Assembly: GCF_000236705.1 (NCBI RefSeq)
Contig: NC_016599.1
Location: 2,914,001-2,978,000, forward strand
Reading direction: 5' to 3'
DNA length: 64,000 nucleotides
From: Owenweeksia hongkongensis DSM 17368
GTDB taxonomy: Bacteria > Bacteroidota > Bacteroidia > Flavobacteriales > Schleiferiaceae
Within the stretch, counting starts at the first letter, position 1. Each line of letters starts with the position of its first letter. Positions 5,650 to 6,290 of this stretch are shown here, in pieces. A model generated the notes under the pieces. It was not told the origin of the DNA. It did not search any database and worked only from the letters and a program-made list of their open reading frames with translations. The position numbers and the translations under genes were made by a program.

Positions 5650-5727
5650 TGGTGGAGAATATCGGAGTCGAACCGATGACCTTCCCGAATGCGTTCGAGA
5701 CTCCCTAGCCAGCTGAGCTAATTAGCC
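5650..5727 (-). pseudogene. tRNA-Ala-derived sequence, copy 1 (encoded CCA, aberrant anticodon arm)
   Basis: The T-arm, 3' acceptor strand and most of the D-arm match the intact tRNA-Ala at 6131-6204, and a CCA end is encoded. The 5' acceptor strand (GGCTAAT) no longer pairs at positions 3-4. The 17-nt anticodon arm is replaced by an 18-nt near-palindrome (5683-5700) that would leave an 8-nt loop. The 5' half overlaps the last codons and the stop of the GIY-YIG gene. It cannot be a normal decoding tRNA, but the terminator after it suggests it was, or is, transcribed. Confidence 0.6.
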
Positions 5728-5959
5728 ATTCTAAGTATTTACGGCTTTTCTTCTTTTTTAACTCCAGTTCTCGCCTTCGGGCGTAAGCAATTTCATCAAA
5801 GCTTTCCGAGTATTTCAAAATCCAAGGGACACCACCTTTGGTAGATTTGTTTCTCCCAGAATTGTGCTGCTCTAGGCGGGTTTCTATATCCTGTGTTGAG
5901 TCAACATAATAACGACCCCAACTTTCAGAATAAATGATATAAACAAAACCTTGAGGCAT
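5705..5959 (-). CDS. Small GIY-YIG nuclease family protein
   Basis: 84 residues, essentially one GIY-YIG domain: VYIIY near the start, YYVDST where the family usually has YYIGST, the conserved Arg in IETRLEQHN, and the basic helix RRRELELKKKKSRKYLEWL at the end. Length fits the UPF0213-like single-domain class. The glycine of YIG is replaced by Asp, so activity is uncertain. The last residues (ISSAG) and the TAG stop are encoded by the D-arm-like part of tRNA-like copy 1, so the gene is physically fused to a tRNA remnant. Such small genes are often scattered in Bacteroidota genomes; a mobile or tRNA-targeting role is inference. Confidence 0.75.
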   Translation of the reverse strand: MPQGFVYIIYSESWGRYYVDSTQDIETRLEQHNSGRNKSTKGGVPWILKYSESFDEIAYARRRELELKKKKSRKYLEWLISSAG

Positions 5960-6032
5960 AATTCTAAATTACGAAAGGTTTTGGATTTTGAGATTGGCTT
6001 TTGGAAATAGGTGGATTAGATACATATGATGA

Positions 6033-6088
6033 GAACCGGTGACCTTCCCGCAAGCATTCGGGACGCTCAAGCAAGTTGAGCTAATCCT
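6033..6088 (-). pseudogene. tRNA-Ala-derived sequence, copy 2 (degenerate)
   Basis: On the minus strand GGATTAGCTCAACTTGCTTG resembles the tRNA-Ala 5' half. An 18-nt palindrome (6046-6063, TCCCGAATGCTTGCGGGA on this strand) follows in place of the anticodon arm, then GGTCACCGG. The T-arm and 3' acceptor are lost. Not a functional tRNA. Confidence 0.55.
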
Positions 6089-6096
6089 TAAAACGC

Positions 6097-6123
6097 AAAA
6101 AGCCTCTCGTTTCCGAAAGGCTT
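6097..6123 (-). terminator. Terminator of the tRNA-Ala gene
   Basis: On the minus strand, stem AAGCCTTTCG / CGAGAGGCTT is followed by TTT. It lies eight bases beyond the tRNA 3' end. Confidence 0.7.
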
Positions 6124-6130
6124 CTTGATG

Positions 6131-6204
6131 TGGAGAATATCGGAGTCGAACCGATGACCTCTTGCATGCCATGCAAGCGCTCTAGCCAGCTGAGCTAATC
6201 CCCC
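6131..6204 (-). tRNA. tRNA-Ala (anticodon GGC)
   Basis: 74 nt with a full cloverleaf: acceptor GGGGGAT / ATTCTCC with two G-U pairs and discriminator A; D stem GCTC/GAGC; anticodon stem CTTGC/GCAAG around loop ATGGCAT (anticodon GGC); T arm ATCGG-TTCGACT-CCGAT. CCA is not encoded. It is the only intact tRNA of the cluster and is followed by its own terminator. Confidence 0.93.
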
Positions 6205-6225
6205 ATTATTTTTAGAACTCATTTA

Positions 6226-6290
6226 GAAGGGTCGCCCCGATGACCTTCCCGCACGATTGCGGGACGCGTAGCCAGCTGAGCTAATCCCCC
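6226..6290 (-). pseudogene. tRNA-Ala-derived sequence, copy 3 (degenerate)
   Basis: On the minus strand GGGGGATTAGCTCAGCTGGC is identical to the tRNA-Ala 5' end. An 18-nt palindrome (6247-6264) then replaces the anticodon arm, followed by GGTCATCGGGGCGACC. No pairing 3' acceptor strand is present. Confidence 0.55.

Follow-up and report, generated by a model that had tools for sequence, protein, structure and literature searches.

The window analyzed here is a 64,000-nucleotide stretch of the Owenweeksia hongkongensis DSM 17368 genome, and its minus strand carries a compact cluster built around one intact tRNA-Ala gene with the anticodon GGC (6130..6204; called by ARAGORN, with an Rfam tRNA match in locus L011). 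Read from the promoter side, the order is copy 3, the intact tRNA-Ala(GGC), the hairpin T2, copy 2, a GIY-YIG open reading frame (ORF), copy 1 and the hairpin T1, the three copies being broken relatives of the intact gene. Upstream of the entire cluster lies the box TATATATTTGC (6305..6315), read directly from the sequence, which we take to be a candidate box resembling the Bacteroidetes -7 promoter element. Copy 3 (6223..6290), situated between this promoter-like box and the intact tRNA, is composed of a tRNA-Ala 5′ half, an 18-nt palindrome in place of the anticodon arm (TCCCGCAATCGTGCGGGA, 6247..6264) and a damaged 3′ half. The terminator-like hairpin T2 (6098..6126), located 3′ of the intact tRNA, is common to the congener G001 and differs from the terminator of the uninvaded congener G002. 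Copy 2 (6015..6087) is tRNA-Ala-like and also bears an 18-nt palindrome for the anticodon arm (TCCCGAATGCTTGCGGGA, 6046..6063), and its T-arm and acceptor are destroyed. The nuclease ORF (5705..5959; 84 amino acids; PF01541, E 2.6e-13) runs into copy 1 (5652..5727), a displaced tRNA-Ala whose 5′ acceptor is overlapped by the end of the nuclease gene, with the last codons inside the copy and the stop codon in its D-loop. The 18-nt palindrome of copy 1 (TCTCGAACGCATTCGGGA, 5683..5700), like the other two located by pattern search, is imperfect. The 3′ half of this copy is identical to that of the intact tRNA, and its terminator is also retained, namely T1 (5620..5647), a terminator-like hairpin that closely matches the tRNA-Ala terminator of G002. 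Unlike copy 1, copies 2 and 3 have damaged T-arms.

The preliminary description of this stretch had reported three degenerate tRNA-Ala copies beside the intact gene, in which the 17-nt anticodon arm gives way to an 18-nt palindrome (5683-5700, 6046-6063, 6247-6264), and a small GIY-YIG gene overlapping copy 1. Our minus-strand alignment and domain search agree on all these points. The palindromes lie between the D-arm and AGGTCA in all three copies and all fit TCCCGN8CGGGA, copy 1 with one mismatch. ARAGORN calls the intact tRNA-Ala(GGC) alone in the cluster, and the three copies fail the cloverleaf and 7-nt anticodon-loop test for a functional tRNA. The broken tRNA-Ala copies are real and no artefact. 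A search of the 4.0-Mb genome for more of them found none outside the cluster, the remaining matches being the intact gene, two tRNA-Ala(TGC) genes and one 16-nt match.

With up to one mismatch, TCCCGN8CGGGA occurs four times in the window against a mean of 0.39 in shuffled sequences, and none of 100 shuffles reached four; the fourth match, at 5252, is unrelated to the tRNA copies. By reading, the palindromes of copies 1 and 3 form 6–7 paired bases (copy 1 with one G-T pair) and that of copy 2 forms 5. The inner 8 nt differ among the three palindromes, so the shared part is the outer five bases. Elsewhere in the window, positions 46600-53900 contain many 67-nt and 42-nt repeat families, spaced by about 210 nt or more, which look like a repeat-rich surface protein.

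A homing endonuclease gene should encode a nuclease domain, and the GIY-YIG site residues Y, Y, G, R, H and E are kept in 153–160 of the 161 collected members of the family. The YIG motif of the window ORF reads YVD, whereas the glycine is present in all 160 other members. The window ORF is therefore probably impaired, in line with the worn state of the tRNA copies. The structural model of the window protein has a mean pLDDT of 85.5 and no separate DNA-binding domain. Its closest fold in the PDB, as judged by Foldseek, is UPF0213 (1zg2, E 1.2e-4), followed by Slx1 structures (6seh and 7cq2, E about 0.02), and the match to I-TevI is weaker (E 0.33).

Empty sites had been suggested for comparison with the window, and the congener G002 supplies one in part. 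It has one tRNA-Ala(GGC) followed by T1, with no GIY-YIG ORF and no second or broken copy in the surrounding 15 kb; one GIY-YIG ORF of this kind lies elsewhere in its genome. In the window, T1 stands behind copy 1, which has exactly the same 3′ half as the G002 gene, and the intact tRNA is followed by the different hairpin T2. Such an arrangement would be expected from an element that carried in a substitute 3′ end and pushed the native end aside. The presence of the element in the window and its absence from G002 resemble the distribution of a homing gene, although G002 is not a perfect empty-site match, since the TPR/SH3 neighbor gene upstream lies about 2.4 kb further away there.

Nuclease genes beside tRNA genes and inside rnpB

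A nuclease profile built from 11 tRNA-adjacent members was run on 99 Bacteroidota genomes with a completeness of 95% or more and detected the family in at least 56 of them, the highest count in one genome being at least 17. We analyzed 90 nuclease loci, namely 30 and a further 60 taken from the matches listed in descending rank, skipping clusters already covered. In this sample, which leans to tRNA-adjacent members because the profile came from such members, a same-strand tRNA lies within 300 nt at 76 of the 90 loci (66 upstream, 10 downstream) and within 60 nt at 57, and none of the 90 has an opposite-strand tRNA within 1000 nt. The neighboring tRNAs represent 23 anticodon classes, an association over many isotypes like that of the SegB subfamily. 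Fourteen loci have no tRNA within 300 nt. Eleven lack any tRNA: two of these ORFs lie in rnpB and one beside tmRNA, and at the remaining eight neither a tRNA nor an Rfam match was found, several being at contig ends. Two other small GIY-YIG genes of the window genome (L008, L009) have no tRNA in their loci, and the one in L009 (1301-2160) lies amid many GC-rich inverted repeats of the GGAATGACnTCCGTG type. The preliminary description had proposed a single element family associated with tRNA-Ala. A family that involves the nuclease gene together with tRNA sequence is borne out, but an element confined to tRNA-Ala was rejected in view of the 23 anticodon classes, RNase P RNA and tmRNA.

Direct repeats bracket 70 of the 87 testable ORFs and none of 86 control windows (three of the 90 loci were not testable), and in some arrays these repeats include more than tRNA sequence. 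Together with the locus maps, they show a complete target gene on one side of the nuclease ORF and a displaced fragment of it on the other, as in mobile ORFs that duplicate a gene end. Two layouts were found. Either the intact tRNA and its terminator are followed by the ORF and then by a copy lacking the 5′ end, or a copy lacking the 3′ end is followed by the ORF and then by the intact tRNA. Targets other than RNA genes occur in family f35, with gene names taken from translations: ORFs at integron integrase genes with the inverted repeats YCCCGTTAGAAAT/ATTTCTAACGGGR or close versions of them (L367-L370), an ORF in a transposase gene bounded by inverted repeats (L372), and ORFs after a duplicated start of rfbB (L373, L374).

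Broken tRNA copies are similarly not peculiar to the window. The pattern of D-arm, palindrome and variable loop, searched in 395 genomes of the order, gave 24 matches in 16 of them, and its reversed control gave none. These matches resemble copies of tRNA-Ala, tRNA-Val and tRNA-Arg, and by our own count the locus holds an intact gene of the same type in 14 of the 16 genomes. A stricter pattern run over all species genomes yielded at least 118 loci. Among the matches listed, 104 of 118 are in records titled as Bacteroidota, 94 have a separate tRNA on the same strand no more than 300 nt from a copy, and 55 have a GIY-YIG ORF within 2.5 kb, many loci being cut by contig ends; in a subset of 80 of these loci, an ORF was present at 36. 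The preliminary description had asked whether GIY-YIG genes lie beside such copies elsewhere; they do at these 55 loci, and none was seen within 2.5 kb, in the sequence covered, at the other 63 of the 118 listed. Tandem arrays are common among the pattern loci listed, and repeated units of ORF plus broken tRNA occur in L153, L159, L180 and L306. Conversely, 61 broken copies of the neighboring tRNA were placed in 40 of the 90 nuclease loci, and none was placed in the other 50 by the method used. The retained halves of the broken copies often show 0–2 mismatches to the parent.

Several individual loci deserve description. L093, in genome G359, contains five broken tRNA-Arg copies in two groups with 103-nt steps, which lie in a larger duplicated block together with a tRNA-Pro and a GIY-YIG gene. 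Loci titled Magasanikbacteria (L177), Marinimicrobia (L126) and Kiritimatiellae (L165) combine a broken tRNA, an intact tRNA and a GIY-YIG ORF, which in L165 is a weak partial match only, at the locus end. We also considered that a recoded anticodon stem might protect the intact tRNA. The CTTGCATGGC form of the Ala arm occurs 7 times with a downstream nuclease gene, 18 times without one and twice at an edge, and the CTACACTGGC form 3 times with and 4 times without; such protection was rejected as a general rule because the arms are the same with and without the nuclease gene.

At five loci the ORF adjoins a match to rnpB, the gene of RNase P RNA. The rnpB 5′ strand is seen upstream of the ORF in four of them, so that the ORF lies inside rnpB; at the fifth, the contig starts in the loop. 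The site occupied is the hairpin before GGAGGAAAGTCC. The ORFs are flanked by inverted repeats of 24, 19, 19, 17 and 11 exact bases, and the arms differ between species, yet they form a 21–22 bp stem in the four complete loci (three distinct sequences). Within one genus, the ORF is present in rnpB in three of eight genomes and the same site is empty in the other five, and the empty sister G429 has nearly all of its 5′ flank in common with the occupied G444 and G485. This presence and absence could also reflect loss. The rnpB ORFs display pN of 0.13–0.18 against pS of 0.85–1.07 (the identical pair G444/G485 left out), which is only a rough sign of constraint because the synonymous sites are saturated. 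The same rnpB hairpin carries the bare palindrome CCCGATAGCTATCGGG in the window genome and a longer run of it in the congener G001.

These distributions bear on whether the broken copies are ordinary debris of tandem duplication, with the nuclease gene a harmless neighbor inherited vertically. Arrays without an ORF between the copies do exist, such as the five copies at 103-nt steps in G359, and 63 of the 118 pattern loci among the matches listed show no ORF within 2.5 kb. Several observations speak against debris: a same-strand tRNA is adjacent at 76 of 90 loci; direct repeats enclose 70 of 87 ORFs and 0 of 86 controls; an rnpB ORF is present in one sister species and absent from another; and ORFs occur within intI and a transposase gene, where inverted repeats bound them, and next to an rfbB fragment that is duplicated. 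This explanation is strongly disfavored, and we regard it as very improbable.

Another explanation would be amplification of the kind known from SegB, a free-standing homing endonuclease of the GIY-YIG class that phage T4/T6 encodes in its tRNA region. SegB makes its cuts in tRNA genes, with a preference for RAWTSGAAC, and causes a tRNA-Tyr segment to amplify in tandem (PMC13096335). The nuclease would cut tRNA genes at a conserved motif, recombination would amplify the tRNA and the nuclease gene together under selection for tRNA dosage, and the broken copies would be worn-out units. The SegB motif resembles the complement of the tRNA T-loop in our own comparison, and the tandem units of nuclease and broken tRNA in L153, L159, L180 and L306 are consistent with such a process. 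On the other hand, the extra tRNA copies here are broken, so tRNA dosage does not rise, and the rnpB and rfbB cases are single insertions. We consider amplification of this kind possible but on the unlikely side.

Fidelity to the tRNA type was measured by nearest-relative counts over 71 labeled members in 13 families. The nearest relative in another family is associated with the same amino acid for 36 of the 71 (shuffled mean 7.5, maximum 18 in 2000 shuffles) and with the same anticodon for 26 (shuffled mean 3.5, maximum 13). A larger set including pattern-chosen loci gave 79 of 122 for the amino-acid type (shuffled mean 13.2, maximum 30 in 1000 shuffles); the claim of fidelity rests on the 71-member count and not on this set. 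Lineage fidelity to one tRNA type fits target-matched nucleases, and very old vertical descent would look alike.

We consider it likely that the window cluster represents, in decayed form, a family of homing-type GIY-YIG genes that is spread across the Bacteroidota. These free-standing genes of about 80–90 codons would occupy conserved genes, mostly those of tRNAs, and their target would be duplicated in part. The observations in favor of this reading are the nearness of same-strand tRNAs, the direct repeats around the ORFs, the lineage fidelity to a tRNA type, sites that are occupied in one sister species and empty in another, the retained catalytic residues and the rough sign of constraint in the rnpB ORFs. 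Insertion would bring, or come with, a duplicate of part of the target, and the outcome would be one complete target gene beside the nuclease gene and another copy left broken. Within RNase P RNA no duplicate would be needed, since an extended hairpin there holds the ORF in its loop. From the behavior of SegB and fungal mobile ORFs, we infer that the nuclease cuts the empty target and that recombination copies the element in; an alternative step would be tandem amplification of the segment, as described for SegB. Cleavage, and movement of anything by the nuclease, are proposed steps. Several points count against a homing-type gene. An intact tRNA persists in the occupied allele, so that a short homing site could not readily tell that allele from the empty one, and the window protein, besides having no separate DNA-binding domain, appears by its modeled fold nearer to UPF0213 and the structure-specific Slx1 than to I-TevI.

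The palindromes within and outside tRNA copies

The exact palindrome pattern has nine sites in the 4.0-Mb window genome, compared with one for the reversed control, and five of the nine have the sequence TCCCGATAGCTATCGGGA. Two of these five are in rnpB and one is in the loop of a cobalamin riboswitch; by reading, the remaining two lie in or near terminator-like hairpins. The rnpB of this genome holds three CCCGATAGCTATCGGG palindromes, the third of them shorter (L021, 1354-1757), and the riboswitch bearing the same palindrome in its loop was identified with Rfam (L020, 1439-1643, minus strand). Among 60 relative genomes, the 16-nt core CCCGATAGCTATCGGG was found in 10, with up to 30 sites per genome, and its reversed control in none. 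In the genome richest in copies quoted here (G053), 16 of the 30 sites, in 15 stretches taken, have no Rfam match, so CCCGATAGCTATCGGG is also dispersed outside known RNA families. In being a dispersed palindrome that reaches 30 copies in one genome, it resembles a REP element.

The broken copies are rich in hairpins. In 43 of the 61 there is a stem of 6 bp or more that is GC-rich and perfectly paired; intact parents show one in 8 of 98 cases, and random windows drawn from these loci in 67 of 1603. The other 18 copies lack such a stem. The TCCCG..CGGGA form accounts for 24 of the 61; random windows drawn from these loci, which may themselves include broken copies, show it in 42 of 1800. Other hairpin types are CTCCG, TGGCGC and CCTGCCTGC. 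A rule that the palindrome always takes the anticodon arm was rejected, as some hairpins of broken copies lie in the D-loop, in the T-arm or next to the anticodon loop. The spacer between tRNA-Ile and tRNA-Ala in G001 contains a partial second tRNA-Ile 3′ end bearing TTCCGATAGCTATCGGAA (L073, about 1279-1320).

These observations allow the palindromes to be independent, REP-like dispersed hairpins that insert into, or substitute for, hairpins of RNA genes where this is tolerated, the GIY-YIG genes being separate; they would pile up in broken tRNA copies for no other reason than that the cell can spare these copies. The spread of CCCGATAGCTATCGGG through 10 of 60 relatives with a silent reversed control, its three occurrences in rnpB and one in the cobalamin riboswitch of the window genome, the 16 G053 sites outside Rfam families, and the use of several palindrome types in broken copies all argue for independent hairpins. 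However, broken copies that bear the hairpin often have halves with 0–2 mismatches to the parent, which would be surprising under passive decay; the arm is replaced at the stem base across many species and tRNA types, in loci that were picked by such a pattern; and stem-rich hairpins are far from common in random windows of the same loci (67 of 1603, against 43 of 61 in broken copies). We place independent hairpins a little below an even prospect. This explanation opposes a role of the palindromes in the element and not the reading of the nuclease genes, and both can be true.

The palindromes may travel as passengers, or the elements may themselves end in them. As a step in the proposed homing-type insertion, the palindrome would often take the place of one hairpin of the broken copy. 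Its most likely role, as we infer it, is to keep the broken copy from folding as a tRNA, or else to hide it from the nuclease or, within the nuclease mRNA, from enzymes of tRNA processing. A bolder idea unites the nuclease genes with the TCCCG palindromes in a single system, in which the palindromes are ends or cargo-less forms of GIY-YIG elements that replace hairpins of RNA genes with their own and stay silent because the RNA would still fold. Two facts can be cited for it. The rnpB hairpin before GGAGGAAAGTCC carries a full element, with arms and ORF, in family f35 and a bare palindrome in the window genome, and the intI-borne ORF is bounded by inverted repeats that start with YCCCG. We regard such a single system as doubtful, at roughly one chance in a handful or slightly better; if true, it would mean that mobile elements of a new kind have found their niche at the hairpin tips of essential RNAs.

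Relation to known systems

Within the open-licence literature searched, as far as its text was accessible, we recognized no description of the chromosomal case, and the family is widespread but apparently undescribed. If our reading is right, a large bacterial group carries chromosomal selfish nuclease genes in its most conserved RNA genes, and RNase P RNA can carry an ORF with no intron involved. The family would also be a source of naturally evolved nucleases, perhaps with specificity for tRNA genes.

Slx1 works with a partner subunit as a structure-specific nuclease, and UPF0213/Slx1-type proteins are not known to be associated with RNA genes. These GIY-YIG proteins (PDB 1zg2, 6seh, 7cq2) are the closest solved folds of the window protein, as far as its predicted model can tell.

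Hairpins in or near RNA genes are known from Rickettsia palindromic elements and from mitochondrial double-hairpin and GC-cluster elements, and REP elements are associated with RAYT. REP elements are not known to have a GIY-YIG partner, and the Rickettsia, mitochondrial and sponge hairpin elements are not known to be tied to a nuclease gene beside a tRNA. The repetitive hairpin elements of sponges also lie in or near RNA genes (PMC2800124), and as far as the available accounts go, all three groups belong to other lineages and have other sequences than the window family. REP elements are described as short dispersed GTAG/CGTC palindromes of 20–40 bp in bacterial chromosomes (PMC3733652). By eye, the GTAG/CGTC tags of that description were not seen here, and the hairpin of the window family replaces hairpins of RNAs.

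SegB is reportedly the subject of a 2008 paper by Brok-Volchanskaya. We set the window family beside SegB by description, on account of a GIY-YIG gene lying beside tRNA genes of many isotypes (PMC13096335). SegB is phage-borne, whereas the window family is chromosomal, consists of an 80-90-codon GIY-YIG domain alone and is accompanied by duplication of a fragment. The accessible part of the SegB account mentions neither a hairpin-bearing tRNA copy nor an ORF inside RNase P RNA (PMC13096335).

The mobile ORFs of fungal mitochondria (Allomyces atp6, Glomus) are described with carboxy-terminal gene duplication (PMC3630166). The likeness is that an endonuclease gene enters a conserved gene and supplies a replacement end, the native end being displaced downstream (PMC3630166). 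The fungal targets, however, are protein genes, the Glomus atp6 case has a LAGLIDADG ORF, and the portion of the account available mentions no palindromic hairpins in the displaced part (PMC3630166). If our reading of the window family is right, it would link the phage tRNA-region nucleases with the fungal mobile ORFs and would explain many broken tRNA copies.
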